This document shows, one piece after another, positions 13,535 to 36,420 of a stretch of 59,894 nucleotides of DNA. The position numbers and the translations under genes are program-made. The DNA is from a virus. The DNA is taken from the IMG/VR virus record IMGVR_UViG_3300030101_004594, positions 1 to 59,894 of that record. One strand, written 5' to 3'. The notes under the pieces are model-generated. The model saw nothing but the letters and a program-made list of their open reading frames with translations, made no database searches and was not told where the DNA came from. Numbering within the stretch: position 1 is the first letter of the stretch; every line of letters starts with the position of its first letter.

Positions 13535-13536
13535 TT

Positions 13537-16891: not shown

Positions 16892-19800
16892 ATGGAGACA
16901 ATAAATTCTACAGATCCTGAAGAATTAAATAAAGTTGATCCTAAAGAAGTAAAAGGAGTCGATACTTCTACAGGAAAAGATTACTCAGAAAAATCTGACG
17001 ATTTAGGAAGTATTAAAAAAGAAGATTTTTATACTCCAGGTAAAAGTGCTATTTCTCGAATTTCAGGCACATCAGTTGATATCGGAGCCTCTACAAGTAA
17101 TTTAAGTGTAGATGCAGCTGCTGCTGCTCAATTTACTGCAGTAGATATAGCTAAAGGTATTAGAGATCCAAATGAGAGAGCTAGGTTTATAAAAGAACAA
17201 GGTTCTAAAATGACTACTCTTATGGATGGAGTAGTCGGAATTAAATTTGATGATGAAATTGCAGATTATTCAAAATTTCGTCAAAAACAATATGATACTA
17301 AAGTTGCTAAACTTTTAGACGATTTAGATGAAAATCAAGGATTTGTAAAAGAGTTTGGTAATTTTGCAGGAAAACTTTTAGGAAGAACTGTTACTGCTGT
17401 AACAGGAATAATTCCTGTTGTTTATGGAATAGGAGAAGCTATAGTAACTGGTAACGGAAAAAGACTGTTTGACAATACTATGTTTGATCAGTGGGAAAAA
17501 GCAGACAAAGCTTTAGATGAATATTTTGTAGTTTACGGAGGAGACAGTTATACGGCAGGAGAAGAAAAAAATGTATTCATGAGGTTTGCAGATAACCCCA
17601 TGAAATCTTTAACAGATGATTTTGCACCTACTATTGCTTTTGTAGCAGGAGCAGTAGGAACTAGTTATATTACAGGAGGAGTAAGTGCTCTTACTGCTAG
17701 TAAAGGAATTAGTTATGTACAAGGTTTATCTAAGTTAGGAGCAAAAACTAATTTAGTTTTTAAAAACGGAGTTAAGTGGGCAAGAGGAATAAAGAAATTT
17801 GAAGACGTAGCTCAATATGGAGCTTTTGTAGAAAGATATTCTAAAGGAATAGGTACAATAAATCAAATGGTTCTTTCTGCTGGCTATGAATCTGCATTAA
17901 TAGCAAGAGATACTCAAAATGCAACAGCTCTTAATTCTAAAATAAGTTACATAAAAGATAACCCACAATTATCGCAAGAATATGATAACTTAGTAAGAGA
18001 GCATATGGATGAGTTTGGTAATATGGACAAAACTCAAGAAGAATTAGTAGACGAAATTTCTAAAAAATTTCCTACATCTGTTTCTAGAAAAATACAATAT
18101 GCTGCAGCTCAAGCAGGTAATTTAGCATTTTTTACTAATGTTCCTTTAGTAGGGGCTTCTAACTTAATTCAGTTTTCTAAAGCTTTTAATAGTAGTTATA
18201 AAGCAGGACAAAGTTTAATTAACAGAAGTACTTTAAATCCTCTTAAAGGAGCAGTAAAAACTGCAGAAGGTAAATTAGCAACTGCTGCTTCTCAAGCAGG
18301 CAAAGGCGCTAAAATATTAGGATATAGTGGTGTAATATTAAAACCTGGATTAACAGAAGCTTTTGAAGAATTTTCTCAAGGAGTTATTGAAAAAGGTTAT
18401 TCTGATTATTATGGTTTAGAATACAAAGATGGCGCTATATTAAATACTAAAAGTTTTTTAGATTCAGTGGCAACTCAAGCTAGTCTTTATGCAAACTCAG
18501 TAGAAGGATTTGATTCAGTTGCTCTTGGGTTTTTAATGGGTATGGTAGGTCTTCCTGTAGGAATAACTCAAGATGCTGCTACAGGTAAAACTAAAATTGG
18601 TTTTGGATTTACAGGAGGTATTAAAGAATCTATACAAGAATTTAAGCAACAACTTAAAGCAACAGATGCTGCTGTAGAACATTATAATGAAGGAAATTTT
18701 AATGAAGTATTAAAAAACAATCTTACTGCAGCTGTTAAACAAATTCAAATACAAAAAGATCTAGACAAATATGCAGAACAAGAAAACATATTTGATTACA
18801 AAAATGCTGAGTTTCAATCTATATATAATTTTATAGAAAATAGAATTAAAAATCAAATAGGAGAAACAGTTTTTCAAGACATAGATGCTTTAGAAAAAAT
18901 GTCTTTAGAAGAATTTAATGAGCAATTTGCTTTTAAAGAAGACTCTTTCCAGTTTAGTGAAAAAACAAAAAAACAAGCTATTAAGTCAATGAGAAATACT
19001 GCTGAAAGTATAATGAAAGCTCATGAAGAAGTTAATACTGTTTTAAATTATAAAAGAGGTTTTATTGATAGACTTTTTAAAACAAAATTTAATGGTATAA
19101 GTAATGAAGATCAAATGCTTACAGAATCTCTTACAGATCAAATGAAGTTTTTATATGCTTCAGGATTAAATATTAAGAAGCGAGAAGAAGAGCTTACTAA
19201 AAGAGTAAGTGATTTAACTAAAGGAAAATTAAATGTTTCTGAATTAGGAGTTCAATTACGTAGTAAAGTAGAAGTTAAAGAAGACGGAAAGACAAAAAGA
19301 AAAGAAGATACAGCAGGTTTACTATCTCAAGAATTAGTTGACATAGATCGAAAAACAGGTAAAGCTATTTTTGCAGACCAAGTAGCTGAACTTAAAAAAA
19401 TGATTAAAGATCAGATTAAATTTGATCGAGAAACAGAAATAGAATACAATAAAAATTCTGTAGAAATAGATCAAATAGTTGAAGATGTAGTTAAGCTTAG
19501 AGACATGGAATCTAAGACTTGGGAAATGTATAAAACTTTGTTTACTCCTGAAGGAGCTAAAAAGTTTACAGAACTAAAAGCAGAATTAATTATTGCTAAA
19601 GCAATACAATTACATGAACTAAATGTTGAAAAACAAAAAGAAGAATTAGCTAAGAAAAAATCTACTGAAGGCGCTACTAAAGCTGCTACTAATGCTACAA
19701 GTACTAACAATGAATTTATTGTAGAAGAACAATTACAAAAAGATTTACAAAAAGTTGATAAAGTTTTACAAGAACAAAAACAAGAATTATTAAAAAACGA

Positions 19801-21259
19801 AAACATAACTAACGAAGATACTGCAAATCTTGCTATAAAAGTTCTTGAAAGTGTATCACCTCTTCTTTTTGCTAAAATAAAAGAAATAGCTGACAACTTA
19901 GGAGAAACTATATTTTCTGATGAAGTAATAGATGTTATACAAGGAAATGGAGATCCTGCAACTGTTGAGAGCGATCGTATTACTACTTTTAAGATTTTAA
20001 AAGAACTTATTAAAGTAAACAAAGAAGCTAATAACAAACCAATAGTAACTTTAGATTATGCTAACGAAGAAGACAATAAACCTTTTGTTAATAATGTAAC
20101 ACCGACTCCTGGAAGCACTAAAGAAAATCACAATACTAATACACATTTATCTTTAAAAGAAAGACTTGAACAAAAACTTAAAGAGCAGCAAGGAGAAAAT
20201 TATGTAGATAAAGGAACTACTTCTAGTGATAAAACAACTATATTAATGTACTCCGACAAGATAGGCAAAACAGGACTTATTCCTGATGGTAATGGAGGAT
20301 ATGTAGCTGTTAATGAAGACATGCCTATTACTGAAGCAAGTAATAAAAAAGTTAATGATGGTACTTTTTTAAGTAACAAAGAATTAAAAGATAATAATGT
20401 TCGAGCTACTTTTAAACTTGTAGAAGATAGTCTTTATGTAAGAAAATTAAAAGCAGAAAATAATTATAACGAAACTACTGCTCCTATAGATGTTTATTAT
20501 GGTGATACATTTATAGGAAGACTTCCTGGATCTAATAAAACAAATACTCCAGAACAATTAAAAAATTTAAGAAAAGCTTTGTTTAAACAATTAACAGCTG
20601 ACGAAGCTGTTAGCCAAGAGGCCCCAGGTGTTTACACAGGATATCAATCTACTGTTACTTCTAAAACAGAAACACTAGAAGAATGGGAAAATCGTGTACC
20701 GTTTAATATTGCTAAACAAAAAGCAAGACCAGATTCAGAAACAAAAAATGACTTCGACGCTTTTGATATTAGTACTACTATTTCTGAAGAAGAATTTAAT
20801 AGAGCTAAAGAATCAAATAACCCTATAAAATTAATAGATAATAATAGGAATGAGTTTGTTCCAGAAACATATGAAGAATATACTAAGTATATAGAATTTG
20901 AGAAAAAAATGTTATCTGCTAAAATAGAACAAGCTATAAAAGCAAAAGATGAACAAAAAGGAATAGAAAATTTAGTAGTAGATTTAGGTAAAAATTATGG
21001 CTATAATATGGTTGATGTAGCCCAAATAAAAAGATTTGTAAAAGCTCGTAGAGAAGGCAAAACTAATGCATCAGCTGCTGAATGGTTATTAGGTCCTCTT
21101 GCTAAAACAGAAACTAAAGAAACTACTTCGCCAGAAACAGAAGTAGAACAGACTGCTAGAGAAAAAGTAATAGAAGAAAACTTTGAAGACATAATAAAAG
21201 CGCTTACTGCTAATCCTATTATGCAGGGAGATGAATTTATAGGAGAAAAGAAATGTTAA
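16892..21259 (+). CDS. Large virion protein with hydrophobic segments, likely ejected (1455 aa)
   Basis: It starts METINSTDPEELNKVDPKEV, 10 bases after the previous stop. After an acidic N-terminus it has several hydrophobic Gly/Ala-rich stretches that could insert in a membrane: about residues 160-185 (TAVTGIIPVVYGIGEAIV), 243-270 (IAFVAGAVGTSYITGGVSA) and 543-560 (VALGFLMGMVGLPVGIT). The second half is helical and charged (about 620-1000). No enzyme motif was found. The mixture of potential membrane segments and long helices is like ejection proteins that line a channel through the host envelope. It precedes the RNA polymerase polyprotein, so it may travel with it. Confidence 0.6.
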   Translation: METINSTDPEELNKVDPKEVKGVDTSTGKDYSEKSDDLGSIKKEDFYTPGKSAISRISGTSVDIGASTSNLSVDAAAAAQFTAVDIAKGIRDPNERARFIKEQGSKMTTLMDGVVGIKFDDEIADYSKFRQKQYDTKVAKLLDDLDENQGFVKEFGNFAGKLLGRTVTAVTGIIPVVYGIGEAIVTGNGKRLFDNTMFDQWEKADKALDEYFVVYGGDSYTAGEEKNVFMRFADNPMKSLTDDFAPTIAFVAGAVGTSYITGGVSALTASKGISYVQGLSKLGAKTNLVFKNGVKWARGIKKFEDVAQYGAFVERYSKGIGTINQMVLSAGYESALIARDTQNATALNSKISYIKDNPQLSQEYDNLVREHMDEFGNMDKTQEELVDEISKKFPTSVSRKIQYAAAQAGNLAFFTNVPLVGASNLIQFSKAFNSSYKAGQSLINRSTLNPLKGAVKTAEGKLATAASQAGKGAKILGYSGVILKPGLTEAFEEFSQGVIEKGYSDYYGLEYKDGAILNTKSFLDSVATQASLYANSVEGFDSVALGFLMGMVGLPVGITQDAATGKTKIGFGFTGGIKESIQEFKQQLKATDAAVEHYNEGNFNEVLKNNLTAAVKQIQIQKDLDKYAEQENIFDYKNAEFQSIYNFIENRIKNQIGETVFQDIDALEKMSLEEFNEQFAFKEDSFQFSEKTKKQAIKSMRNTAESIMKAHEEVNTVLNYKRGFIDRLFKTKFNGISNEDQMLTESLTDQMKFLYASGLNIKKREEELTKRVSDLTKGKLNVSELGVQLRSKVEVKEDGKTKRKEDTAGLLSQELVDIDRKTGKAIFADQVAELKKMIKDQIKFDRETEIEYNKNSVEIDQIVEDVVKLRDMESKTWEMYKTLFTPEGAKKFTELKAELIIAKAIQLHELNVEKQKEELAKKKSTEGATKAATNATSTNNEFIVEEQLQKDLQKVDKVLQEQKQELLKNENITNEDTANLAIKVLESVSPLLFAKIKEIADNLGETIFSDEVIDVIQGNGDPATVESDRITTFKILKELIKVNKEANNKPIVTLDYANEEDNKPFVNNVTPTPGSTKENHNTNTHLSLKERLEQKLKEQQGENYVDKGTTSSDKTTILMYSDKIGKTGLIPDGNGGYVAVNEDMPITEASNKKVNDGTFLSNKELKDNNVRATFKLVEDSLYVRKLKAENNYNETTAPIDVYYGDTFIGRLPGSNKTNTPEQLKNLRKALFKQLTADEAVSQEAPGVYTGYQSTVTSKTETLEEWENRVPFNIAKQKARPDSETKNDFDAFDISTTISEEEFNRAKESNNPIKLIDNNRNEFVPETYEEYTKYIEFEKKMLSAKIEQAIKAKDEQKGIENLVVDLGKNYGYNMVDVAQIKRFVKARREGKTNASAAEWLLGPLAKTETKETTSPETEVEQTAREKVIEENFEDIIKALTANPIMQGDEFIGEKKC

Positions 21260-21291: not shown

Positions 21292-24200
21292 ATGGCTTGT
21301 GAATATTGGTATGACGGTAAATTCAGAACAGAAGAAGATTTTAAATCTATTTTAGAAAATGGATTAATAGATCAATTAATATCTGAAGGTAAAATTGATT
21401 TAAAAAACTTTGAGCTAAATAAAAATTTAGTTAAAAATAAAAATGTAGAAAAGTCTCCAATTACATTAAGAATTACAAGACATGTTCAAAGAAATTTAAA
21501 TATAGATTCTAGAGAAGGAAACGAAAAAAATTATCAAAATCCTTTAAATGTTTTTGGAAAAGATATGAAGTTAGTCGTAAGAGTAGGCGATTCTTTATAT
21601 GCAGGAAAAAACAAATTAGTTCAAAAAGAAATTAATGAAAAATTAAATCTAGATGGAGCAGGAGAATTAAGTATTAATTCTTTTGAAATAGGTAAAGTAT
21701 ATGCCTTAGTAGAATCTAGTTATGGCTTTTATCCAGTACAACTTTTTAATAATAAAATAAAAGACACTAATATTAGTGGAGAAGTTTTTAATGCTTTAGA
21801 TGTTTTAGCTAAAGCAGTAAAAGAAAAAGATTCTAAGAATTATTTAAAAACAAGAAAATTCTTAGAAAAAAAATTATATAGAACAACTGTTAAATATGAT
21901 AACGGTCAATATATTATAACTAAGTTAGAAGGAACTGATGAAGAAACTGTTAATAAATTTGATACTAAAGAAGAAGCTAATGAATTTTTAGGAAATCAAT
22001 TATATAGAGTAGACTCTTTGGACATTAATAGAAAAGGTTACAATGAAACTTTAGCAAATGATGGAGCAATTGTAACAGATACTTTTTTAGATAACGGTAA
22101 TATTTTTCATTCTAGTTCTTTTCAATTAGAAGCTTATACTACTGGAAATGATACTAAAAAGAATCAAGAATTTTTTGCACAAGAAGATGGTAGTGGTAAA
22201 ATTAGTGTTGTAAATATAGCAGAGTTAGAAGCTAAATACGAAAAAAATAAAGAAGCTTCTACGAACAATAAATCAGGAGAAACTGAAGGAGAACTTTTTG
22301 GTAAAGATGCTGATCAATTACAACTACTTGAAAAGATTAACGAAATAGAAAATCCTGCTACTAGAGCAAAACTATTATCTGTTTTAAAAAATAATAGTTT
22401 TATAAGACCTTCTGATAGTAAAGGTAATGAAGTTGCTGAAGGGTCCGATAATCATACTCATTATGTAAATACTAAAACAAAAAAAGTTCTTACAAGAACT
22501 ACTAGTTATATTTCTGAAAAAGAAATGACAGAAGAGGATAAAAAAAATCCTGCTGTTGTTTCAGCGCTTACTGTTGGCAGCAAAGTAGATGTTTTAATTA
22601 GAGACTTTTTTGCAGGGACTTTAAAAGAAGAGTATGATGTTGCTAGTAAAGAAGTTGTAGCAGGTTTAGTAAAGCAGTTAGAAGCTATTAAAGCTGTTAT
22701 GGACAAAAGAGGAGAAACAGTTATTCCTCAAGATATAGTTCTTTATAATGACGAAATTGGTGTAGCAGGTACAGTAGATTTATTAACTTTTGACAAAGAG
22801 GGTACTATAAGAATTTATGATGTTAAGACTTCAAAATACGATGAATTTACAAAAAACAAATACGGAGAAATTCCTTATGATTCTAAAGTAGTATTTGAAA
22901 AAACAGGTGAAAGAAAAGCAGATGGGAGCCTTAAATTTAAAGTAGTTGAAGGTGCTACTCAAGACAGTAAAAGAGAAAAGCATCAAAAGCAATTATCTAT
23001 GTACAGAATGTTGCTTAATAACACCCACGGCCTTCTTGCAGATACTTTAGCAGTAATGCCTATTAAAGTAAGTTACACAGTTCCTAGTGCTTCTACATCT
23101 GAATTAACTTTACAAAAAGGGGTAGATGTAAAACCTTTAGATACAATAAAAGAAGCTACTCTTACTAAGCCAGTAAAAAGTATTGCAGAACAATCTACTG
23201 AAGACGCTGCTGAAATATTAGCAGGATTTGAACAAGGAGAACAAACAGAAACTGAAGACGAAGTTACTACTACAGGAGATCAAGGTAATAATAAAGAAAA
23301 TAGAAATACTCTTGAAAATCTTTTAGGTAAATCTACTGGAGAAACTACAAATACTGATGAAGACGAAGACATCGATGATATAGATCCTAGTTTAAGACTT
23401 AGAGAAAAGAAAGAGAAAGTTATTCCTAATAATGGAATGAGTAGAGAAAGAGAATTAGAAGTACTTCAACAAATACTAGGAGATGCCTATAAAAGACAAT
23501 CTGGTAAAAAAGGTACTGTAAGAGTATTTAAAGATTTTGAAACTCTTAAACATTATTTACCTGCTAAAACTTACGCAATGCTTTTAGAAGCCCGTAAGAA
23601 TGGCCAAGAACTTTATGGTTTGTTTACAGCAGCAGCTGTACTTATTCAACAAAATGCTCCTGTAGGAGTTGCTTTTCACGAAGCATTTCATGTTATATTT
23701 AATTTAGCTCTTCCTGTAGAAGAAAGAGTAAGAATACTTAATGAAGCTTATAATAAATATAAAGAAGATCTGCCCGCTACTATAGTAAGAGATAAAGATG
23801 GAGCTGTAGTTTCTGCTAAACTCCCTACTTACTTAGAAATAGAAGAGTATTTAGCAGATAAATATATGGAGTACGTAAATTCCGACGGAGAACTTACTAA
23901 ATCAGCAGATGTTAAAGCAGAAGAATTAGAACAAAAGAAAAAAGATATTTTAGCAGGTAAAGATTTAACATTAAAAAACTTTTTTAATGCTTTTTATAAA
24001 ATGTCTAAAGTATTTTATTCTACTCAAAAAGTAATTAATATAGATAATTTATTTGAAGGTATTACTGTAGGAGAATATAGTAAAAAAGTACAGTTTAGAA
24101 ATACAGCATTAGATGCAAGTGTTAGGCAAATGTCTAATAACTCAGGTAAAGTAACTAACCCAGACAGAAAATATGTAAATAAAGAAGCCGAGCGTCAAGG

Positions 24201-27200
24201 ATTTGTAGCATTAAATCATATAATAAATAAACAACTAAATCTTGCTAGACAAGAAACTAATAGTAAAGGAGAGTTAACTTATTCTAAAGATTTAGATGAT
24301 AAGAATCTTATTAGTAAAATGGGAGTGCATTCTTTTATTAGTAGAGTAGTACATGATTTAGCAGTCACTTTAGTAGCTTATCAAACAAAAGCAGATAATG
24401 CTACTGGTGCTAAAGCTAGAGAATACAATCAATATATAGCTAATAATTATCAAAAGCTTTTTAATATTTTAACTAATAACGGAACAGCTGTTGTTAATAA
24501 TCCTAAAACAGGTTTAATAGAGTTTATTAAATCTACTGACTTATTAGAAAGATTTATTACAAGTTTACAAAAAAGAGGATTGTATATAGATTATAGTAAT
24601 GGTACGCGAAGTAAAGAGTCTACTCCAGAAGTATTTGAAAATGATAATGTATTAGAAGATGATGCTATAAATAATTTAGAGAATGGAGAAGAAACTTCAG
24701 ATGCAGTTGCTATGAGAAATCATATTGAAGTTGATCCTAGAGAAAGTATAAGTCAAAGACTTAAAACATTTTTTTCTCAGATTCCTAAATTAGATTCTGC
24801 TTTTCAGCCTCAAAAAAATTCTTTTGGAGTACAAGAATTTGAAGATCCTGCACAAGTTTTTAAATTTTTAATTTCTAAAGTTTCCAATAGTTATACTATG
24901 GAATCTATGATGGAAAAATTACAAGCATTAAATAAACCTTATATAGCAGATATTTTAGATGCCCTAGAAGAGGATCCTATTTTACAAACTCATTTCTGGG
25001 TATCTATAGGTTCTAGAAATTATGCTACATATAAAACTGTTTATGAAAAAAATGGTTCGTACCAGGTAATTAGTTCTAACAGAAAAGATGTAAATAATAT
25101 AGTTAGTGAAAATTTAATATCTAATTTTTTAGATCCAGCTAACCCTTTATTTTCAAATAAAAATATTCAAGAATTAAATCAAGCAGAAGTAGCAAAATTT
25201 AAAGAAGGCATTGAAACAGCGATTAAAGAAGTTCAACTTATAAAACAATTAAAAGGCGATGAAGCACTTCCTTTTAATAAACCTGATGCAGATTTAGATC
25301 AAATAAGAGCTGTTGCTGAAGTAATTGAAACTCTTTCTAAACTGCTTGCTAAGTATAAAATTAATATAACAGAAGATGAATTATTATTAATATTAAATCC
25401 TCCTGCTGAGTTAAAAGATTATACAGCATCTTTAAATAATTTTTATACTACAGAACAAACAAGTAGTTCAACAAAACCAGGATTATTAAATGTTCTTAAA
25501 AATATTGCAAAAGAATTAGAAGAAGGTAAAAATTCATTTACTGCACTTACTCCAACAGGATCAGATGCTTTAGGTAATAGAACTAGAAAAGCTGTTTCAT
25601 TAGTAGAAGATTTAGGTAGAGCTATTATTCCTGCTATGCAAACAGAAGTAGTAGCATCTTTTAGAAACGTAAATAATAAAACTGCGTATAATTTAATTGC
25701 TTCTGGCCATTTAAATAAAATGATTACTGAGTTACAGGATCCAGATGCGCTTCAAGATTATTTAGAAAAAAGAAAAGAAGATCCTTTATTAGCTAACCTT
25801 CCTTATATAGAAGATTTACAAGACCCAGACGACAATCTAATGGATACATTAGAAACAGTTATTTTAGACGGTCTTAGTCGACAAGGAAAAAATAAATCTG
25901 TACAGTATTCTAAAATGTCTGATATAGAAATAGAAGCTACAAGTATGGGACTGTTTCTTAATAACGAAAATAAAAAAGAAGGTTATTATAAGTTAGGTAT
26001 ACCTTCAGATTCTCCTACATTAGGTTATGTAAAAGGAAAAAAATATAGCACAGAAGAAATACAAAATAAATTATTAAAGACTGCTGAAGCTGAACTAAAA
26101 AGGATTCAGGTAATTAAAAATTTGCCTAAAGAATCTTCTTTAAAACTAACTCCTAATTATATAGAAAGAGGCCAAAAGTTTCAATTGTTAAGTTTTTTAA
26201 ATGGTAAAGTAGATACTTCTAAACCTTTTGTAGAAATTCAAGATACTATTTTAGAAGAAATTCAAAAATTTACCGATAGCAACAATCTAAATGGATTAAT
26301 GGGTATTACTATTAAAAAATATTTACAAGCAGGTGTTATATCAGAAGTTAAAAAAGATGGGTCAATTACATTTGCTAAAGGAGTTATAGATAAATCTTTT
26401 AAAAATGATACAGAAAGAAAAGCATTTTTTGAAAATTATATATTAAATACTTTTTACCACAGTACTCAGCTAAATACAATTTTTGCAGGAGATCCTAGTT
26501 TTTATAAAAGCACAGAAGATCATCAAAAACGTTTTAAACAAATTATGAGTCCTGGTACTTATACAACAGGTACAGGAACTTTTAATGCTATCATACTTAA
26601 TGACAGTATTATACCTACTACTCAAATGCAATTTGAGCAGATAGAAAAAACTGTAAACAACTCTGATATTTCTCAATCTGAAAAAAATGAGATTTTAAAA
26701 ATATGGAAAGATACTTTAGAAAGTAAAAAAGAAACAGGTAATAATGAATCTGATGCAGGTACATATGTTTCTTTAGCTAGACGTAAAAGAATGCTGCAGC
26801 AATTAGGACGTTGGGATAGTAGTTATGATGCAGCTTTTAAAAGATTAGAAGCAGGTACAGAAACTATTGAAGATTTAAATCTTATTAACGATCCTTTTAA
26901 GCCTGAAAAACCTTTTATGTTTACTAAACAATTTGTAGACGGTGTAGAAATACCTATGCAAATTAAAAACTCAGAAACTGTTTTAACAAAATCATTTGCT
27001 CTTGCAGAACAGTTTAATGAAAAAACAGGTAAACAAGAATATAAATACCCCGAATTAGCCGCTGTTTATTTAGATATGAATGGAGGAAAAGATTTAAACG
27101 GTAAAACTTATGAGGCTAAATATGATACTGCTATATTTGAATCAGCTGTAAAAGTAGGTGCACTAGGAAATAAAATTGACAAAAATGGTAAAGTAAGATT

Positions 27201-30200
27201 TTCTCAATACGTACAACAAGCTGATGGGTCTTATCAATTAGAAGAAGGTTTTACTGTTATTCCTTTAAAAGAAGAAGATTACAGATTACAGCAAGAAACT
27301 CCTCCTCATTATTTAGATGATAGATCTAACTTTGGTACTCAGTTAAGAAACTTAATTATAGCAGATTTAGATTTAGAAGGAACTTATAACATAAAAGGTT
27401 ATGACAAACCTATTTCAGGAGCTAAAGTAGTTCGTCTTTTCCAAGAACTTGTAGAAGAAGACTTAAAAGAGTCGTATTTTTCTACAGAAAAAGAATTCTT
27501 AGATGCTGATGAAAATATTAATTGGGACAGACTTTTACCTATACTTAGAAAAGAAGCATTAAAAAGAGAAATGGGCCAAGAAATTTTAGATGCTATTACT
27601 TCTGCAGAAAAAACTTTAGGAGACACTGACAATTTAACTAGTCCAACAGTTCTTCCTTTATTCCATCCATCTATTAAATATAAAATGTTTGCCTTAATGA
27701 ATTCTATTTTTAAGAATAGAATCACTAAACAAAAAATTAAAGGTGGACAGTTAGTAAACACTCCTTCTTATGGTGTTTCTAAGGATTTAAAAATGAAAGT
27801 AAAAGATGGCAGAATTGTATATGAAGCTTTATTGCCTTGGACATCTAGAGAATTTTTTCCTACAAATGAAAAAGGAGAAGTAAGTATAGAATTTATTAGA
27901 AAGCATGCTCCAGAGCTTCTAGAATTAATAGCTAACAGGGTTCCTACTGAAGATAAATATTCTATGTTTTCTATAGAAGTAGTAGGATTTACTCCACAAT
28001 CTATGGGTGGTACTATTATACTTCCGCCTCAAGCAACTACAGTAGCGGGGCTTGACTTTGATATTGATAAATTATTCTTTATGCAAAGGGCATATAGAAT
28101 GCAGGGTAAAATTCCTAAAGTAATAAAATATATAAATGAAATTACTGAAGACAATGTAGATCAAATAGCTAACAATTTATTTAGTTCTCATAAATCTTTA
28201 AAATCATTTTTAGAGCAATCTGAATTAGACAATGAACTTGCTCAAGAAATTTTAACAAGAAGAGAAGAATTAATTTTAGCTGAAGCAAAAAACAAAGCAG
28301 GTAAGAAAGAAATTAAAAAGACTGCTAAGTTTATAGACTTAACAGAAAAAATAGAAGGCCTTCAATTACGACTTCTAACAACAAATTTAGAAAAAGCTAA
28401 AAGAAAAAGTATTGAAAGTGAGATTAGTGAAGAAATAGCAAAATTGCAAGAAGATTTTGTTCCTTTTAATGATGCTATGGAAGCAAATAATAAATTAAAA
28501 GAAAATGTTATAGATGTTTTAAAAGCAGAGCTTAAAAAAGGAAACGTTAATCCAGTTATGTTTAATGGTAAGGCTGCTAGAGACAATGCAAAAATTAATA
28601 TTATAGAAGGCATTCTTAGGGATCCTAAAACTGCTACTAGTATATTGCATCCTGGTAACTTTGATTCATTAAAAGAACAAGCAGCTTTTATAAGATTAGC
28701 TAAAGAAGGTAAAATAGAAGAAGCAGAAAAATTATTAGAAGAACAAAAAGGAAAAGAATTAATAGAAAAATCAAAAGAAACTGATCCACAAGATTTTAAT
28801 ATTAATTATCCTTCTACTCAATTAGAATTGTTCAGACGTAATATGGATGGTTCTGACCTTATCGGTATTATGGCTAATCATAATGTGCACCATGCTAAAG
28901 CTATGCACGCAAATGTAGTGTTACATAAAGAAATTTTTATAGATAAAGTAGCATATAGAAAACTAGATAATAAAACTAATATTAATGGTGAAAGAATATC
29001 CAGACTCCTAGCAACTAACTTAGCAGCAGTTGTAGATAATGCTAAAGATCCTGTAGCAAACTTCTTAAACATGAACACTTATACTGCTGATACTATAGCG
29101 TTCTTAACTCGTTTAGGAGTGCCTCAAAATTATATTTACTTATTTATAAACCAACCTGCAATACTAGAGCTTACTAGATTACATTTTAATGAACAAGGTT
29201 CTTTAAGTAAAGAAAAAATAATTGGCTCTATATTAGCAAAATGGGGATCAATACTTTCTGAAAAATATGAGGCAGCAGGTATTAAGCCACAAGATCGAAA
29301 AGATTATGCTAATAGAATAGGAACTACTTCAAGAACTCTTAGAAAAACTATAGATGGAGGAAAAGACTTAGATTATTATGTAGCCCAAATGAATGTTTTA
29401 GATAAGTTTTTAATCTATCAACAATATGGACAAGAGCTAGGTGACGGAGTACAAGCAGCTAGAGTAGATACTGTAGGTATGGGACCAACAGATGCTAACA
29501 ATTATATGCAAATTGCTAAGATTCAAAAACTAAAAGATAAAGAATTAGGTGTAGACGGTAATCCACCAACTGCTAAAATTTTTGGACTAAAAGACATAGT
29601 GTTGGGTAGTCCAGGAATTAACCAAACTATGATACCTGCGTTTACTAAATATTCTTTATTATTTCCTACAAGTATTTTAAATAAAATATTTCCATCTATT
29701 GGGGCTGTTAAAGTTCAAGAAGGAACTTCTAATTTTTCTTTACAATATTCTGTATTAGGAAAGTTAAAAAATAAAATGGCAGAGCTTACTCCTACAGGAA
29801 GTCTTACTGAAAAAGAAGCTAATCTTATAGATAATCGTTTTATAGATTTTATTTCTTCAGGTTTTGATTTCTTTGACTATAAAAAAAGTAAAGACATTAT
29901 AGATAAAATGCCTAATAAATTAGCTAGTTTAAAAGAAGAAATTAAAAATCTAGATAGTAAATCTCCTTTTAAAAAGTATAAATATTTCTTAGACCAAATA
30001 TACAAAGTAAACCCTACTAAAACTACTCCTATATCTAGAATAGAATATTATAAGACTGGTAAGAATGCTTTAGATACTGAAAGATTTACTAATACTTGGG
30101 AGTTAATGTTAAAAGACAGTGATCCTGAAATTAATAAATTTGCACAAGACTTAGTTCAATATGTATACTTTGCTAATGGCTATACTTTTGGGCCTTTTAG

Positions 30201-31665
30201 TTTTGCTAATTTAATTCCTGTTTATTTTTGGTCCGATGAGTATCAATCTAATAACAAAGAAGTTAATACTAAGAACAAAACTTTTAATCAGTTTTTATAT
30301 AAAATGTTTGAAGAAACTAAATTTGGAGCATCTGATTTAGAAAGTGTTTCTGAACTAGGACAAACAACAGAAGATTGGGAATCTAGATTTATAGATCAGT
30401 TTATTAGAAACTTTGGAGATCAAGGAAGATTTGCTACTACTGTACAAATACAAGAATTTTATGGAGAAGAAGCAGAAGCTAAAGGATTAGCAGAATTAAC
30501 TAAAAGAATAGAAGGTAAGCCTGGAGAAATATCTGAAGAAGAGCTTAAAAAAGCTACTATGGCAATGAGTTCTCAAGTTAAAGGAGTTATTAAGAATTCT
30601 AAAGGAAGTTTAATAGTTAATGTTAGTAAAAATCCAAATGTATTTAAAGGAAAAGATCGGATTCCTGTACAATTTATTAAAGTATTTACTCCTAGTAATA
30701 AAATATACAAAGCTCAATACTACAAATATTCTGGTGATATAGACGGCAGTACTATTGATCCTAATCTTTCTGAAAAAGGGTCGGCATTAGATGCTGCTAT
30801 TTATGTTCCTATGCCTAATTTAGGACTATCTAATTTCTTAACAGAGTTTAATTTCTTTGACGATATTCAAGAATCTCTTTTAAAAGACATTACTCACTTA
30901 GATGATTTAATAAGAGAAAATGATTTATCTTCTCCACAACAACCTACAGCAACTTCTGAAGAGCAAGCATATTTTGATAGGATGATGGCTCAAAGAAGAA
31001 GCGGCCAAATAATTCAATCAGGAGGAGGAACTAATGCTACCTATAAAGCTCAAGGTGAAACTATAGGAAATTATCCTGTAGAATTTGAAGGAAAGAATTA
31101 TAGAATTATAGTAGAAAATGGACAAACTAAGATTTATACTATTAATCCAAAGATGGCAGATAAATCATTGCCATTTAATGATGTTACTTCTAATTTTACT
31201 CCAGAACAACGAAGACAAATCTTTTTAAAACAAGCTATTGCTGCAGGAACAGGAACAACTGTTACTTATAAAGGAAATAAATACGGAGTTAATGAACAAG
31301 AAGAAATATTCTTATTAAATACTGGAAAATTAGTAACTTGGCCTAAAACAAGCCCTGCCTATATGGAAGTACTAGAATTAGCTAATAAAAAATTAGGAAA
31401 AACTAGTACTGATTCTAAAAATACTCAAGAAGAAAAAGAAGATACAGATTCTAAAAAAATGTCTGCAGAAACTTTTAAAGAAGAAATAAAAAAGATTGTT
31501 AATAAAAAGCAACAAGAAAACTTTGAAAGCGAAGAAGCAGCAGAAACTTTTATGAACTCTGAACCTTTCCAAAGTGCTTTAAGAATAATAAAAGATCCAG
31601 ATATTTTTAATACTGTTTCTCAAGAAGAATTAAATAGAATTATATCAGACTTAGAAAATTGTTAA
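21292..31665 (+). CDS. Virion RNA polymerase polyprotein with PD-(D/E)XK nuclease and zincin signatures (3457 aa)
   Basis: One unbroken reading frame of 3457 codons. Three enzyme signatures occur in order. (1) PD-(D/E)XK nuclease: GTVDLL with Asp496, YDVKTS with Asp510 and Lys512, then KHQKQLSMYR (Gln567, Tyr571). (2) Zincin-type metallopeptidase: AFHEAFHVIF with His796, Glu797 and His800, and a possible third ligand in LEIEEYLADKY (about 849-857). (3) RNA polymerase double-psi beta-barrel catalytic loop: GLDFDIDKLFF with Asp2255, Asp2257 and Asp2259, matching the DxDxD rule of cellular beta-prime-like and crAss-like single-chain polymerases. In crAss-like phages such a polymerase is packaged and transcribes early genes after entry. 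The nuclease and peptidase functions are predicted from motifs only; the peptidase might mature this and neighbouring giant proteins. It starts MACEYWYDGKF. Confidence 0.85.
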   Translation: MACEYWYDGKFRTEEDFKSILENGLIDQLISEGKIDLKNFELNKNLVKNKNVEKSPITLRITRHVQRNLNIDSREGNEKNYQNPLNVFGKDMKLVVRVGDSLYAGKNKLVQKEINEKLNLDGAGELSINSFEIGKVYALVESSYGFYPVQLFNNKIKDTNISGEVFNALDVLAKAVKEKDSKNYLKTRKFLEKKLYRTTVKYDNGQYIITKLEGTDEETVNKFDTKEEANEFLGNQLYRVDSLDINRKGYNETLANDGAIVTDTFLDNGNIFHSSSFQLEAYTTGNDTKKNQEFFAQEDGSGKISVVNIAELEAKYEKNKEASTNNKSGETEGELFGKDADQLQLLEKINEIENPATRAKLLSVLKNNSFIRPSDSKGNEVAEGSDNHTHYVNTKTKKVLTRTTSYISEKEMTEEDKKNPAVVSALTVGSKVDVLIRDFFAGTLKEEYDVASKEVVAGLVKQLEAIKAVMDKRGETVIPQDIVLYNDEIGVAGTVDLLTFDKEGTIRIYDVKTSKYDEFTKNKYGEIPYDSKVVFEKTGERKADGSLKFKVVEGATQDSKREKHQKQLSMYRMLLNNTHGLLADTLAVMPIKVSYTVPSASTSELTLQKGVDVKPLDTIKEATLTKPVKSIAEQSTEDAAEILAGFEQGEQTETEDEVTTTGDQGNNKENRNTLENLLGKSTGETTNTDEDEDIDDIDPSLRLREKKEKVIPNNGMSRERELEVLQQILGDAYKRQSGKKGTVRVFKDFETLKHYLPAKTYAMLLEARKNGQELYGLFTAAAVLIQQNAPVGVAFHEAFHVIFNLALPVEERVRILNEAYNKYKEDLPATIVRDKDGAVVSAKLPTYLEIEEYLADKYMEYVNSDGELTKSADVKAEELEQKKKDILAGKDLTLKNFFNAFYKMSKVFYSTQKVINIDNLFEGITVGEYSKKVQFRNTALDASVRQMSNNSGKVTNPDRKYVNKEAERQGFVALNHIINKQLNLARQETNSKGELTYSKDLDDKNLISKMGVHSFISRVVHDLAVTLVAYQTKADNATGAKAREYNQYIANNYQKLFNILTNNGTAVVNNPKTGLIEFIKSTDLLERFITSLQKRGLYIDYSNGTRSKESTPEVFENDNVLEDDAINNLENGEETSDAVAMRNHIEVDPRESISQRLKTFFSQIPKLDSAFQPQKNSFGVQEFEDPAQVFKFLISKVSNSYTMESMMEKLQALNKPYIADILDALEEDPILQTHFWVSIGSRNYATYKTVYEKNGSYQVISSNRKDVNNIVSENLISNFLDPANPLFSNKNIQELNQAEVAKFKEGIETAIKEVQLIKQLKGDEALPFNKPDADLDQIRAVAEVIETLSKLLAKYKINITEDELLLILNPPAELKDYTASLNNFYTTEQTSSSTKPGLLNVLKNIAKELEEGKNSFTALTPTGSDALGNRTRKAVSLVEDLGRAIIPAMQTEVVASFRNVNNKTAYNLIASGHLNKMITELQDPDALQDYLEKRKEDPLLANLPYIEDLQDPDDNLMDTLETVILDGLSRQGKNKSVQYSKMSDIEIEATSMGLFLNNENKKEGYYKLGIPSDSPTLGYVKGKKYSTEEIQNKLLKTAEAELKRIQVIKNLPKESSLKLTPNYIERGQKFQLLSFLNGKVDTSKPFVEIQDTILEEIQKFTDSNNLNGLMGITIKKYLQAGVISEVKKDGSITFAKGVIDKSFKNDTERKAFFENYILNTFYHSTQLNTIFAGDPSFYKSTEDHQKRFKQIMSPGTYTTGTGTFNAIILNDSIIPTTQMQFEQIEKTVNNSDISQSEKNEILKIWKDTLESKKETGNNESDAGTYVSLARRKRMLQQLGRWDSSYDAAFKRLEAGTETIEDLNLINDPFKPEKPFMFTKQFVDGVEIPMQIKNSETVLTKSFALAEQFNEKTGKQEYKYPELAAVYLDMNGGKDLNGKTYEAKYDTAIFESAVKVGALGNKIDKNGKVRFSQYVQQADGSYQLEEGFTVIPLKEEDYRLQQETPPHYLDDRSNFGTQLRNLIIADLDLEGTYNIKGYDKPISGAKVVRLFQELVEEDLKESYFSTEKEFLDADENINWDRLLPILRKEALKREMGQEILDAITSAEKTLGDTDNLTSPTVLPLFHPSIKYKMFALMNSIFKNRITKQKIKGGQLVNTPSYGVSKDLKMKVKDGRIVYEALLPWTSREFFPTNEKGEVSIEFIRKHAPELLELIANRVPTEDKYSMFSIEVVGFTPQSMGGTIILPPQATTVAGLDFDIDKLFFMQRAYRMQGKIPKVIKYINEITEDNVDQIANNLFSSHKSLKSFLEQSELDNELAQEILTRREELILAEAKNKAGKKEIKKTAKFIDLTEKIEGLQLRLLTTNLEKAKRKSIESEISEEIAKLQEDFVPFNDAMEANNKLKENVIDVLKAELKKGNVNPVMFNGKAARDNAKINIIEGILRDPKTATSILHPGNFDSLKEQAAFIRLAKEGKIEEAEKLLEEQKGKELIEKSKETDPQDFNINYPSTQLELFRRNMDGSDLIGIMANHNVHHAKAMHANVVLHKEIFIDKVAYRKLDNKTNINGERISRLLATNLAAVVDNAKDPVANFLNMNTYTADTIAFLTRLGVPQNYIYLFINQPAILELTRLHFNEQGSLSKEKIIGSILAKWGSILSEKYEAAGIKPQDRKDYANRIGTTSRTLRKTIDGGKDLDYYVAQMNVLDKFLIYQQYGQELGDGVQAARVDTVGMGPTDANNYMQIAKIQKLKDKELGVDGNPPTAKIFGLKDIVLGSPGINQTMIPAFTKYSLLFPTSILNKIFPSIGAVKVQEGTSNFSLQYSVLGKLKNKMAELTPTGSLTEKEANLIDNRFIDFISSGFDFFDYKKSKDIIDKMPNKLASLKEEIKNLDSKSPFKKYKYFLDQIYKVNPTKTTPISRIEYYKTGKNALDTERFTNTWELMLKDSDPEINKFAQDLVQYVYFANGYTFGPFSFANLIPVYFWSDEYQSNNKEVNTKNKTFNQFLYKMFEETKFGASDLESVSELGQTTEDWESRFIDQFIRNFGDQGRFATTVQIQEFYGEEAEAKGLAELTKRIEGKPGEISEEELKKATMAMSSQVKGVIKNSKGSLIVNVSKNPNVFKGKDRIPVQFIKVFTPSNKIYKAQYYKYSGDIDGSTIDPNLSEKGSALDAAIYVPMPNLGLSNFLTEFNFFDDIQESLLKDITHLDDLIRENDLSSPQQPTATSEEQAYFDRMMAQRRSGQIIQSGGGTNATYKAQGETIGNYPVEFEGKNYRIIVENGQTKIYTINPKMADKSLPFNDVTSNFTPEQRRQIFLKQAIAAGTGTTVTYKGNKYGVNEQEEIFLLNTGKLVTWPKTSPAYMEVLELANKKLGKTSTDSKNTQEEKEDTDSKKMSAETFKEEIKKIVNKKQQENFESEEAAETFMNSEPFQSALRIIKDPDIFNTVSQEELNRIISDLENC

Positions 31666-31668
31666 ACA

Positions 31669-34600
31669 ATGAGATGTGTAAATATTAGTCATCCTGATTT
31701 TAGAAATTTATTAGATGGTTCTGGTTTAGAACTTGCAGTACTACGTGCTAAAGTAGGGCTGTGGATGGAGCAAAATGATAGCTTTGAAGAATTTCCTACT
31801 CTTGCAGAGTTAGGATTAAAAAAGAATTTTAGTATTCCTGGAGCCGCTCTAAAACAAGTAGACGAACTTCGTAAACTTATTCCTGAAAACATACAAAAAA
31901 AATCTCAAATACTTACAGGTTTATTAAGTGAAGCTGATGAGTTAGAAGGTATAGTTCCTAACAGAACTGATTTAGAAGTAGTTTCAATTTTTCTTAATCA
32001 AAAAAGATATAATAGATTAACAGAACAAGAACAATTTAAAGTACAAGAATATGCACAAAATTATTTAAACGACAATTTTGTTAATGAGAAAGAATACGAT
32101 CGATTAATACAAGAATATCCTGAAGAAAATAGAACTGATTTTAGAGTCATAGAAGAAGTAATGGCTAAGACTAAATTACCTAGAGATGAATTTATTATAG
32201 ATTTTTTTAAAGGAGATTTATTTGAAGTTGCGGAAGAAGCTAGAGAAAGAAAAATGATAACTATTCCTGGCGAAACAAAAAACAGAGCAGATGTAATGTA
32301 TCAAATTAATTTAGCTAAGATGTATAAAGATCAAGCTAAAAAAATATTTTTTGATAGGATACGTGGTAAAGATTTAAGTGACTCAGATATACAAAGAATA
32401 AATGGGGATTTAAAAAGAATATCAGATAATGCAGGAGATGTTCAGTGGACCCTTAGACAAGCAAGATCAGGAAATTATTACATAGCAGGCTATAAAAATG
32501 GAGCTGTTACTATGGATAATTACTATTCTCCTTATGCAGGAGGAATGTTTAGGCAGCTTAAATCTAAATCACAGGAAATACAAGTAGAAAAGTTAGATGT
32601 TAAACTTACTAATTGGGCAAAGAAAAATGGTATTTCTATAGAATCTTTAAAATCAGTTGTAGAAAAATTTCCAGATAGATATGAAAACTCTGCACTAGGT
32701 ATAGCAGATTTTGCAAAAGGATTAATTGCTGTAGCAGACAATAGAAACATAGATACTTTAGCAGAAGAAATTGCTCACTTTGCTATAGAAATGATGTTAA
32801 CTAAAGACGAAAATATGCAAGCAGCATTAGATCAGGTAGTTGATACTCAAACTTATCAAGATGTTTTAGAAGAGTATGGGGAAATATATGAAAACGAAAT
32901 ACAGTTTAAAAAAGAAGCTTTAGGTAAAATATTAGCAGCTGAAATAGTTAACCAATTCCAAACTACAGAAGCATTATCTAACAAACCAGGATTCTGGCAA
33001 ACTTTTAAAAATGCTGTAGTTAATTTCTTTAATAGGATTCAAGAAATACTTGGAATAAATAGACCAGGAAGAACAGCATTAGAAAAAACTATTATTCCTT
33101 TAGCAGAATCTATTCTTAACGAAGAAAAATTAGATACATTTAATGCTTTAAATGGTTATACTAAAGCAGAAATTTTATATCAAATAAATGAACAAAAAGA
33201 ATCAGTTTCTGATATTCCCATTTTAAGTACTACAGAAGAACTTATTAAAAGGAAAGAAAAAATATATAACACTATTCTTTCTAGATTAGAAGCAAGAGTA
33301 AAAACTTTTGAAAGAACTTCTGCTAAAAGTAAAAGACAAATAGCTACTCTTAAAAATAATATTAAAGAACTTACTCGTCTTAAAGATATAGGAGAAATAG
33401 ATTTAGGAATAAGCAAATTTGCTTTACAAGCTCAAGAAGAATTACAAAAAGTTAATAATCTTATGGATGATGTTGCTAATGGCAATAGTTTTATGACTGC
33501 TATTAGTTTAGTAACAGCTCATGATTTTATGTTAATGTACGATGATTTATTTAGAGATATTAATAATAACTTAATTCAAAAAGGAGTAGAACCTGAAGTA
33601 AGAGAAAAACTTTTAGAACACACAGGAAAAGTACATTCTTTGCTTAAAAATGGTTTAGCTAGTAGCCAAGTATTAATAAATAGTTTAGCTATAAAAACTT
33701 TAGAAAATGCAAATAAAGATTATAATGGAGAAATTATAGATAAAGATTTTGATGCTAGAGAAATTATAGAAGCTACTTATGGAGACATGAGTACGTGGAG
33801 ATTGCAAGTAGGTAACTATAAATATGCAGACTCAGGTATTATTAGAACAGTTGCTAAAATATTATTTAATGCTAAAAGTAATGTAGATAGATTTGTTAAA
33901 AGACTTTTTAATTCTTTAGTAGGAAGTCAACAAATCTTTTTAACTAAATACAAACAAACTGATCTTGTTGAAAAAGATTCTAATGGAAAACCAACTCATT
34001 ATTTTGCAAGAGAATTAAACTATTCTAAGTATTATGAATCTCAACAAAATCTTAGAAATGAATTAGCTAGAAAATTAAATATTAAAAATCCTGAAACAGA
34101 AGAATTTGATTATAAATATATAGATGTAACACGTTTAAGTCCAGAAGATAGAAAAATTTATAATGAAGCTTGGGCAGATTGGAGAAAAAATAATTCTATA
34201 ACAGAAACTATTTATGATGATGAAGGAAACATAGAAGGAACTAAAACTATTCCTAATAGTAAATATAAAAACGAAGATTTCATTAAAAAAATGAAAGACC
34301 CTGTTTATAAAAATTACTACGACGCAATTATAAAAACAAAAACTGAAGCAGTAAATAAACTTCCTGTTAATTATAGAACAGAAAGATTGATTTATATGGT
34401 CCCATCTGTTTACAAAAGTACTTTAGAACGTATTACTAAAAAATCACAAAACGATAGTTTTCTAACTAAAATAGGTAAAGTAGGGAGAGATGCTTTTTTT
34501 GTAGAAGCTGATGATACTCAATTTGGACAATTAAATGCTCTTAACAATAGAGTCATTCCTATATTTTTTACAGGAGAAGTAGCCAATTTAGAAGATTTAT

Positions 34601-36420
34601 CTTACGATATTTTAAGATCTGTTTCTTTATTTGCAGAAATGGCAGAAAATTTTTCAGAAATGAATTCAATCGCTGGAGAATTAGGAGCTATTCAAAAATC
34701 TTTAGCAGTACGAGAATATAAAACTAAAGGTAGAGGACAAGATAAAGAAGGAATAGAGTCTAAAGAATACGAAGCTTTAGAAAATTTAATAAATACACAA
34801 CTTTACAATATAGAAAGAGAACAATTAGAATATACTTTTGAAGAAAGTAATTTATTAAGAAAAGGTGTTTTAAAAGCTACAGGAGGAAAAGTAGATTTAA
34901 AAGATAAGTCTATGTCTTGGACAAAAGTATCTCAAAAAATTGCAACATTTATTAGAGACAATAACTTAGCTTTTAATTTAATAACTTCTACAGTAGGTTG
35001 GCTAAAAGGATCTGCAGATAGTATTATAGAAGATCAAATAGGTATTTATAGTACTAATGAAAGTAAAAATTTTGGTAGAAAAGAATTTTTTAAAGAATTA
35101 GGAATGGTAATAGCTGATATAGGATCTCCTAAACAAAGAAGTAAAATGCATTTAATATTGCAAGAAGCTCAAATAGTAAAGCTAGATACTATGTTATATG
35201 AAACTGATAGAAACAGGGCTACTAGAAAAGTTCTTAATAGAGATATATTGTATACTACTTTTGCTTCAGGAGATTATGGTATGAAAGGCCGTATTGCATT
35301 ATCTATTTATGATAATTATAGACTATACAACGGTAAGTTTATGACAAAAGCTAGGTTTATGAGAGCTACTAGTATAGAACAAGGAGTTAAAAACGATGGT
35401 GTTCATGCTAAAAAAATGAGTAAAGAATGGGAAGCTCTTAGAGAAAAAAGTTTATATAATGCATATGAAGCAGTTGATGGGCAGTTAAAGATTAAAAAAG
35501 AGTTTAAAAAGTTTGTAACTGAAGGAGTTCTTAATAGTGTTAAAGGAAAAATAGAACATGTTTCTACTCAAGTCGATGGCGTTATGAGTCCTACTGATAA
35601 AGGAAAATTATCTAGAACTATTTTAGGAGACTTTATTTTTATGCATAGAGGCTGGTTTATTAATATGGTAGATTCTAAATTTAAAAGAGGTACTGTTAAT
35701 TATTTAAGTGAAGAAGAAGAAATAGGTCACTATAGAGCTATGGGTGGGTATTTAAGAAATGTTTTAAAAAACATAATATCTCAAGGAAATACTGAAACTA
35801 CTGGAGCCTTTGCTGTGTGGAAAGAATTAAGTCCTGCTAAAAAACGAGGAGTAAGAAAAACTATAGCAGATACTGTATTTTTAATGATTGCTACTGTGTT
35901 AGCAGGAATAGCTAATAAATTAGCAGATGATGATCCTAAAAATATGACTAATCAATATTTAGCATATGTTTTAAATAGATTATTATTAGAACAATCAGCA
36001 GGATTTAATATGGCTTCTACTGTAGAAATTATTGACGAACCTGTAGTAGGTGCAAGAATTCTTAAAGAAGCTGTTTCTATACTAGATGCATTTAGTGGAG
36101 AAACTTATGAAAAAGGTATGTATGAAGATTGGACACATAGAGGTAAATATTGGTTTAGAAAAACTCCTTTAAAAAATCTATATGAGTTACAATATCCTGA
36201 TGAAAAAAATAAATTTATTAAGACTGTAGTAAATAATGGTTATTATAATTATTTATCAGATGAAGAAGGTATTGGAATTACAGGATGGTTATTAGGAAAA
36301 TTAATACCTTATTACGGTACTAGCTGGGATCAATATACTAATAATCAAAAAAGAGAAAATGTGTTAGAAGCCATTGATAATTTAGAACAAGATCAAGAAG
36401 TAGATAACGGTTTTAATTAA
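31669..36420 (+). CDS. Large RNA-polymerase-associated virion protein with degenerate HExxH (1583 aa)
   Basis: It starts MRCVNISHPDFRNLLDGSG 3 bases after the polymerase stop and is the last gene of the + strand virion block. Around residues 362-375 it has TLAEEIAHFAIEMML. This aligns with the zincin helix of the preceding protein, but the first His is Glu (EEIAH instead of HExxH; His370 remains), so it may be an inactivated or variant zincin. Long helical regions follow (about 520-640), then a hydrophobic helix at about 1401-1420 (TVFLMIATVLAGIANKLAD). This is the position of the second large polymerase-linked, ejected protein in crAss-like phages. No polymerase motif was found in it. The role is inferred from order and size. 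Confidence 0.62.
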   Translation: MRCVNISHPDFRNLLDGSGLELAVLRAKVGLWMEQNDSFEEFPTLAELGLKKNFSIPGAALKQVDELRKLIPENIQKKSQILTGLLSEADELEGIVPNRTDLEVVSIFLNQKRYNRLTEQEQFKVQEYAQNYLNDNFVNEKEYDRLIQEYPEENRTDFRVIEEVMAKTKLPRDEFIIDFFKGDLFEVAEEARERKMITIPGETKNRADVMYQINLAKMYKDQAKKIFFDRIRGKDLSDSDIQRINGDLKRISDNAGDVQWTLRQARSGNYYIAGYKNGAVTMDNYYSPYAGGMFRQLKSKSQEIQVEKLDVKLTNWAKKNGISIESLKSVVEKFPDRYENSALGIADFAKGLIAVADNRNIDTLAEEIAHFAIEMMLTKDENMQAALDQVVDTQTYQDVLEEYGEIYENEIQFKKEALGKILAAEIVNQFQTTEALSNKPGFWQTFKNAVVNFFNRIQEILGINRPGRTALEKTIIPLAESILNEEKLDTFNALNGYTKAEILYQINEQKESVSDIPILSTTEELIKRKEKIYNTILSRLEARVKTFERTSAKSKRQIATLKNNIKELTRLKDIGEIDLGISKFALQAQEELQKVNNLMDDVANGNSFMTAISLVTAHDFMLMYDDLFRDINNNLIQKGVEPEVREKLLEHTGKVHSLLKNGLASSQVLINSLAIKTLENANKDYNGEIIDKDFDAREIIEATYGDMSTWRLQVGNYKYADSGIIRTVAKILFNAKSNVDRFVKRLFNSLVGSQQIFLTKYKQTDLVEKDSNGKPTHYFARELNYSKYYESQQNLRNELARKLNIKNPETEEFDYKYIDVTRLSPEDRKIYNEAWADWRKNNSITETIYDDEGNIEGTKTIPNSKYKNEDFIKKMKDPVYKNYYDAIIKTKTEAVNKLPVNYRTERLIYMVPSVYKSTLERITKKSQNDSFLTKIGKVGRDAFFVEADDTQFGQLNALNNRVIPIFFTGEVANLEDLSYDILRSVSLFAEMAENFSEMNSIAGELGAIQKSLAVREYKTKGRGQDKEGIESKEYEALENLINTQLYNIEREQLEYTFEESNLLRKGVLKATGGKVDLKDKSMSWTKVSQKIATFIRDNNLAFNLITSTVGWLKGSADSIIEDQIGIYSTNESKNFGRKEFFKELGMVIADIGSPKQRSKMHLILQEAQIVKLDTMLYETDRNRATRKVLNRDILYTTFASGDYGMKGRIALSIYDNYRLYNGKFMTKARFMRATSIEQGVKNDGVHAKKMSKEWEALREKSLYNAYEAVDGQLKIKKEFKKFVTEGVLNSVKGKIEHVSTQVDGVMSPTDKGKLSRTILGDFIFMHRGWFINMVDSKFKRGTVNYLSEEEEIGHYRAMGGYLRNVLKNIISQGNTETTGAFAVWKELSPAKKRGVRKTIADTVFLMIATVLAGIANKLADDDPKNMTNQYLAYVLNRLLLEQSAGFNMASTVEIIDEPVVGARILKEAVSILDAFSGETYEKGMYEDWTHRGKYWFRKTPLKNLYELQYPDEKNKFIKTVVNNGYYNYLSDEEGIGITGWLLGKLIPYYGTSWDQYTNNQKRENVLEAIDNLEQDQEVDNGFN

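Follow-up and report, generated by a model that had tools for sequence, protein, structure and literature searches.

Among gut phages crassviruses are the commonest, and the locus described here raises the question of what a nuclease and a peptidase do in the same chain as one of their virion RNA polymerases. A sequence-only reading of the DNA had noticed the signatures of all three activities in one open frame and had proposed that the polypeptide may be cut by its own zincin, that the nuclease may act on host DNA and that such a precursor would be a distinct take-over machine. The window, i.e. the whole stretch of 59,894 nt that was analysed, is the first part of a linear IMG/VR virus record of 88,174 nt. 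Its gene content and order are crassviral: plus-strand virion genes, the three giant open reading frames (ORFs) w5, w6 and w7, and minus-strand replication genes, among them those for a DNA polymerase and helicases. A search of the phage collection at the DNA level gave no close relative of the window, and in a translated search w6 matches the crass RNA polymerases of crAss001, cr85_1, Dulem virus 41, phi14:2 and others.

Some further features of the window were recorded. In the virion region, the ORF at 6944-9847 (+) contains an endolysin/chitinase-like domain (phrog_181, E = 7.5e-17); its product probably degrades the wall as a tail or ejection protein. On the minus strand, three ORFs at 47853-50668 overlap by about 80-130 nt (a DnaB-like helicase at 47853-49067, an ORF at 48940-49500 and a helicase at 49418-50668), which is unusual and possibly due to over-long starts or a frameshift. 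ORFs of at least 100 aa are sparser at 53335-59894 (−) than in the remaining window, and a tRNA called by ARAGORN at 58132-58215 (−) has an odd two-base anticodon and is probably decayed or false.

The ORF w6 (21292..31665, plus strand) encodes 3457 aa and is composed of an N-terminal domain, a nuclease, an acidic linker, a zincin and a two-barrel virion RNA polymerase. Its frame runs uninterrupted from ATG to TAA with no internal stop. Upstream lies w5 (16892..21259, plus strand; 1455 aa), by homology equivalent to the N-terminal portion of crAss001 gp47 (w5 residues 158-649 match gp47 103-608, E = 4.9e-16); it is matched by separate upstream ORFs in the related loci L016, L017 and L019. The stop codon of w5 (TAA, 21257-21259) is separated from w6 by a gap of 32 nt. 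A read-through of this stop into w6 was considered and rejected, because the frames of the two ORFs differ and the relatives have the same boundary. Downstream follows w7 (31669..36420, plus strand; 1583 aa), the third large protein associated with the virion RNA polymerase (vRNAP), in the position of gp49. The N-terminal domain of w6 (residues ~1-330; 21292..22281, plus strand), delimited by alignment with L016-L020, is kept in the closest relatives regardless of what comes after it. Both the start (MACxYWYDGKFRTEEEF) and the stop ahead of w6 are conserved in L016-L019, which also have the A / zincin-RNAP / D organisation of the window in common; this organisation is therefore no artefact.

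Pfam and NCBIfam scans of the whole w6 protein gave almost no matches. The three sets of motifs are indeed present in one open frame, with GTVDLL at residue 493, DVKT at 510, QLSMYR at 567 and HEAFH at 796, and GLDFDIDKLFF begins at residue 2253 (2254 in the earlier reading). The HExxH and RecB-like patterns of w6 exceed chance: among 2000 composition shuffles of the chain any HExxH was found in 1.9 % and a RecB-like pattern of comparable kind in 2.15 %. The bare DxDxD pattern alone is not significant in w6 (0.8 expected by chance). That the motifs arose by chance was rejected by the homology tests.

For the polymerase, residues 1117-2979 (24640..30228, plus strand) are homologous to the virion RNA polymerases crAss001 gp50 and phi14:2 gp66, and the match to gp50 extends over this whole region (E = 1.9e-96). 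Compared by phmmer with the solved structure of phi14:2 gp66 (PDB 6vr4), w6 is aligned in three stretches within residues 1666-2736 (E = 5.1e-23), and D2255, D2257 and D2259 are in register with the known catalytic DFDID, which in w6 occupies residues 2255-2259 (28054..28068, plus strand). By homology to a solved structure, the assignment of this part as a Crassvirales two-barrel virion RNA polymerase is secure, and the RNA polymerase identity read from the motif is confirmed. In crAss001, the polymerase gp50 and gp47 were found packaged in the virion by mass spectrometry (PMC10172136, PMC6235969), and for the virion polymerase of phi14:2 both packaging and DNA-dependent RNA polymerase activity have been shown (PMC10172136). 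By analogy, we infer virion packaging and RNA polymerase activity for w6.

Elsewhere in the sample, L007 (bajarodcaudo virus 1, 26441-28126) and L037 (10783-11616) have an interruption of the RNAP gene in or beside the catalytic DFDID; the one in L007 holds an annotated endonuclease gene. In both, a self-splicing intron or an intein, placed where conservation is highest, is the probable cause. In L070 (ORF 725-13249), about 180 extra in-frame residues, an intein or a domain insertion, divide the match to the RNAP core profile.

The RecB/EXO5-like PD-(D/E)XK nuclease lies at residues 402-604 (22495..23103, plus strand), with D496, D510, K512, Q567 and Y571. It is matched by PHROG 298 (exonuclease; E = 5.6e-13) and weakly by Pfam PDDEXK_1, and a sequence comparison with its profile also hits the AdnAB nuclease domain (E = 3.5e-4). 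The motifs GxxD, (D/E)xK and QxxxY are conserved in the family: D496, D510, K512 and Q567 are present in 37 of 37 homologous ORFs and Y571 in 34 of 37. An AlphaFold2 model of the domain (pLDDT 85, pTM 0.80) retrieved human EXO5 with Foldseek (E = 1.9e-5), as well as MGME1, Cas4-like proteins, AdnA/AddA, RecE and lambda exonuclease. At the position of the motif I histidine (GxxxH), w6 has D433, and other members have H or D. Homologues and modelled fold together bear out the PD-(D/E)XK identity proposed from the motifs; the domain is of the RecB/EXO5 type, with an active site complete except for D433 of motif I.

The zincin (metallopeptidase) domain, here termed ZN1, is assigned to residues 746-909 (23527..24018, plus strand). 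HEAFH (residues 796-800; 23677..23691, plus strand) is predicted to provide two zinc ligands and the general base. E852 (23845..23847, plus strand) in the EEYLADKY helix is the predicted third ligand; it was marked as such by the alignment with PPEP-1 and because it is lost together with H796 and H800 in one clade. A local HMM seeded from the w6 zincin found 51 homologous ORFs among 94 loci, with E values from 1e-29 to 1e-47; HExxH is kept in 42 of the 51, and L087, L092 and L093 have HExxE. In most lineages H, E, H and E are conserved at only about 20-30 % sequence identity.

In L054, L055, L056, L062, L066 and L067, H796 is replaced by W, H800 by R and E852 by T or I, all together. These loci form a clade with a support of 99 on the RNAP tree, and their chains of 5.5k aa contain the RNAP and a C-terminal nuclease in the same frame; five of the six lack any HExxH, and L066 has only an HExxxH far downstream. 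The loss of the ligands is one evolutionary event in one clade. Homologues that keep the domain without its catalytic residues, which the sequence-only reading had named as evidence against its proposal, were thus found in one of many clades (six rows, W-E-x-x-R). The pseudo-zincins of the L054-L067 clade are a natural experiment on whether catalysis matters.

In profile comparisons the zincin aligns with PPEP-1/Zmp1 of the lethal-factor-like group in both the HExxH and the EE helix (E = 0.007), and there are weak matches to Tox-MPTase4 (best E = 0.003). The AlphaFold model is mediocre (pLDDT 76, pTM 0.60), and Foldseek gave no match in the PDB at E ≤ 0.001. In a viral library two matches reached E ≤ 0.001, one of them to a giant protein from the gut crassvirus cr4_1; the weaker ones include proteins of further gut crassviruses annotated as 'DNA helicase', 'NTF2' or uncharacterised; these matches are no independent fold assignment. 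Because of the mediocre model without a PDB fold match, the assignment rests on sequence evidence: profile match, conservation and correlated ligand loss support a lethal-factor/PPEP-like zincin at residues 746-909, and to this extent the peptidase proposed earlier stands, its fold having found no counterpart in the PDB. A viral search that used the nuclease-zincin stretch as a single sequence gave no relatives because poorly conserved stretches had been chosen; the alignment-based RNAP search succeeded.

A second zincin class, ZN2, is present in phi14:2 gp65, C-terminally in those proteins of Intestiviridae and bajarodcaudo virus 1 that correspond to gp47, and elsewhere. When compared by hhalign with profiles that share no members, ZN1 and ZN2 match with a probability of 95.5 (E = 1.6e-8). 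Furthermore, the ZN2 profile, made from crass sequences only, matches residues 2223-2345 of the N4 vRNAP with 27.2 bits (i-E 1.7e-10), the best of 300 shuffled controls reaching 4.4 bits. This segment is inside the region that Iyer et al. assigned as a zincin (PMC5512222). The crass RNAP profile gave no match to the N4 vRNAP, and w6 is not of the N4 type, its polymerase being two-barrel and not T7-type. Therefore, two unrelated packaged polymerases carry zincins of the same superfamily. In N4-like RNAPs a zincin is fused almost always and an ADP-ribosyltransferase sometimes, and processing or host-directed roles have been proposed (PMC5512222). Within the stretch examined, a ZN1 or ZN2 zincin is found in at least 64 of the 94 loci, a lower bound because many other loci end at the contig edge or the 10-kb flank.

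Zincin and RNAP are in the same ORF in 42 of 51 ZN1 loci, so that their union is ordinary and the notion of a distinct take-over machine finds no support in the form proposed; chains with three enzymes also occur in L024, L029 and the L054-L067 group, and a unique presence of all three activities in w6 was likewise rejected. In crAss001, gp47 (2341 aa) contains the nuclease at 1694-1877 and the zincin at 2099-2222, at its C-terminal end, and the polymerase gp50 is encoded on the opposite strand. Dulem virus 41 has the order gp47-like, RNAP, gp49-like on one strand, and in cr85_1 the zincin is intact and the RNAP a separate gene on the other strand. On the RNAP tree a single change explains fused versus split zincins. 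Fused forms are found on both sides of the midpoint of this tree, whose true root may lie elsewhere, and therefore the zincin-RNAP fusion may well be older and the split into two genes, as in crAss001 and its relatives, derived.

Between w6 and its nearest relatives the N-terminal domain and the zincin-RNAP part are conserved, and the stretch between them is wholly different. In the window this slot holds the nuclease, which ends about 190 residues ahead of HExxH. In L036 and L047 the slot contains ART-PolyVal (E = 2.4e-9 and 2.1e-8), an ADP-ribosyltransferase family whose name refers to polyvalent proteins, and in L016 a PP2C-like domain (E = 7.8e-4, below the Pfam cut-off); no domain was recognised in the slot of L019, L020 and many other relatives. 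On the RNAP tree the position of the nuclease shifts at least 16 times. The third protein also has a variable N-terminal stretch, its own one in w7, which contains the nuclease in L021, ART-PolyVal in L023 (E = 5.6e-18) and, in cr1_1, the nuclease together with a second zincin. The slot ahead of the zincin is an exchangeable cassette position, occupied by a nuclease, an ADP-ribosyltransferase, a PP2C-like domain or none. As to the polyvalent class described by Iyer et al. (2017), the w6 chain combines unrelated enzymatic domains including an MPTase, and domains are exchanged among its relatives.

Two stretches in other loci were noted. Residues ~671-872 of L016 (ORF 3254-14287), in the slot that holds the nuclease in the window, bear a PP2C-like phosphatase signature (TNEDAVYVD...ILADGMGGEYA). 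The C-terminus of cr85_1 gp56 (L010:12727-14037), a virion-type protein annotated as RNA-polymerase subunit, appears by eye to have an ADP-ribosyltransferase-like stretch after the zincin (FKEWFGDW...VVYHGT...GKGLYLS).

These data suggest that w6 encodes the catalytic subunit of the virion RNA polymerase of crass phages. Its architecture would be that of a 'polyvalent' phage protein, in which an N-terminal module with two putative side enzymes, the nuclease and the zincin, precedes the two-barrel polymerase. Judging from phi14:2 and crAss001, the protein would be packed in the head, pass the tail before the DNA and refold in the host cytoplasm, where the polymerase would transcribe early genes, as is established for phi14:2. 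Host molecules or partner ejection proteins are the probable targets of nuclease and zincin, which are likely unneeded for cutting the polymerase from its own chain; an action of the putative nuclease on host DNA at entry is possible. By analogy, we consider it moderately probable that w6 is ejected cargo of the polyvalent type whose putative side enzymes act in the host. A self-cutting precursor, in which the zincin cleaves the chain during or after ejection and so separates the polymerase from the part with the nuclease, or activates it by cutting the polymerase segment that blocks the cleft, appears unlikely. The zincin is located about 1050-1290 residues ahead of the RNAP core, where other phages divide the chain into two genes, and phi14:2 gp66 was reportedly crystallised in a self-inhibited state, both of which would suit such a cut. 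For zincins in polyvalent proteins, self-processing has also been proposed, and processing is known for P1 DdrB (PMC5512222). However, the zincins of crAss001, Dulem 41 and cr85_1 are intact though a different gene encodes the RNAP, one that in crAss001 and cr85_1 even lies on the opposite strand, and in the L054-L067 clade the zincin is ligand-less, yet zincin, RNAP and nuclease remain in one frame. Since the zincin is intact where the RNAP is split off and dead in one-frame chains, release of the RNAP cannot be what it does in general, and the self-cleavage envisaged from the sequence is disfavoured, though for this phage it keeps some probability. In addition, the N4 vRNAP is packaged uncut (PMC5512222), and the crAss001 virion gel bands of ~150, 270 and >300 kDa would by their size fit uncut gp49, gp47 and gp50 (PMC6235969).

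The ligand-less clade, in which the zincin domain is nevertheless retained, could also speak for a part of the zincin mainly in packaging or ejection, the fold being kept for docking in the head or unfolding in the tail and catalysis being secondary. The fixed place of the zincin beside the RNAP agrees with this, and the C-terminal region of the N4 vRNAP, which includes its zincin, is needed for encapsidation (PMC5512222). A pure scaffold, however, needs none of the H/E/H/E residues kept in most lineages at such low identity, and the Steigviridae relatives cr106_1, DAC15 and cr126_1 have no recognised zincin in the stretches examined; we regard a mainly structural role as improbable. Finally, the window is a metagenome contig, and all six nearest relatives (L016-L021) lack a nuclease at the position it has in w6, so that an assembly chimera or a decayed passenger has to be considered. 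This is very improbable: the nuclease is in frame and has all catalytic residues, the sequence most like it in the sample is the nuclease in the neighbouring ORF of the clade-mate L021 (43 % identity), and the nuclease-zincin order of w6 recurs in crAss001, cr85_1, Dulem 41 and L037. Ejected cargo with side enzymes that may act in the host remains the preferred reading of w6.

Crass polymerases of the two-barrel type and N4 polymerases of the T7 type have both recruited zincins, and the zincin would therefore serve a need common to giant polymerases ejected through a tail, be it entry, refolding or host take-over. Tentatively, and with somewhat less than even confidence, the virion RNAPs of crassviruses may be seen as a general carrier for exchangeable injected enzymes, with the zincin serving a step common to giant ejected polymerases. 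If so, the slot would be filled by different host-acting enzymes in different phages, such as the nuclease, the ADP-ribosyltransferase or the PP2C phosphatase. Many crassvirus proteins with no annotation beyond 'RNA polymerase subunit' or 'hypothetical' probably contain enzymes that act on the host. A zincin common to crass and N4 virion polymerases would indicate one common entry step of giant packaged polymerases. For the entry and start-up of the very large injected crassvirus polymerases, the conserved peptidase and the changing cassette offer concrete mutants.

PDDEXK domains in crass transcription proteins (PMC7886860) and the zincin-RNAP fusion in N4-like phages (PMC5512222) are already known, and the main texts of the crAss papers that were searched contain no mention of a zincin in the crassvirus polymerase chain or of an exchangeable slot. 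For these reasons, what we rate as new is the design of a polyvalent virion polymerase on an unrelated polymerase type. Like the large transcription-associated protein of some crass-like phages described by Yutin et al. 2021 (PMC7886860), w6 has a PDDEXK domain; the zincin, the ADP-ribosyltransferase and the exchangeable slot do not appear in the main text of that paper.

Among the systems that have been studied, phi14:2 gp66 (PDB 6VR4) and crAss001 gp50 resemble w6 in the polymerase over residues 1117-2979 with its DFDID motif and in being encoded among giant vRNAP-associated genes that follow those for tail and ejection. Unlike w6, in which nuclease and zincin are both fused N-terminally, they are stand-alone polymerases with neither. 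Virion-packaged crAss001 gp47, an 'RNA-polymerase subunit', contains this nuclease and this zincin, arranged as in w6, but it includes the part equivalent to w5, and its gene is distinct from that of the polymerase and lies on the opposite strand. Compared with crAss001, the gp47 equivalent is split in the window: its N-terminal part is w5, and w6 contains its end, fused to the polymerase. In Thermus phage P23-45 a two-barrel virion RNAP is also fused to a large ejected protein, but its partner is the tape-measure protein, and no nuclease or zincin is described there (PMC10770324). The N4-type vRNAPs, in a paper whose text does not mention crAss phages or crassviruses (Iyer et al. 2017; PMC5512222), are likewise packaged single-chain polymerases with a lethal-factor-like zincin and in some cases an ADP-ribosyltransferase; in contrast to w6, their polymerase is of the unrelated T7 type and the zincin is located C-terminal to it.
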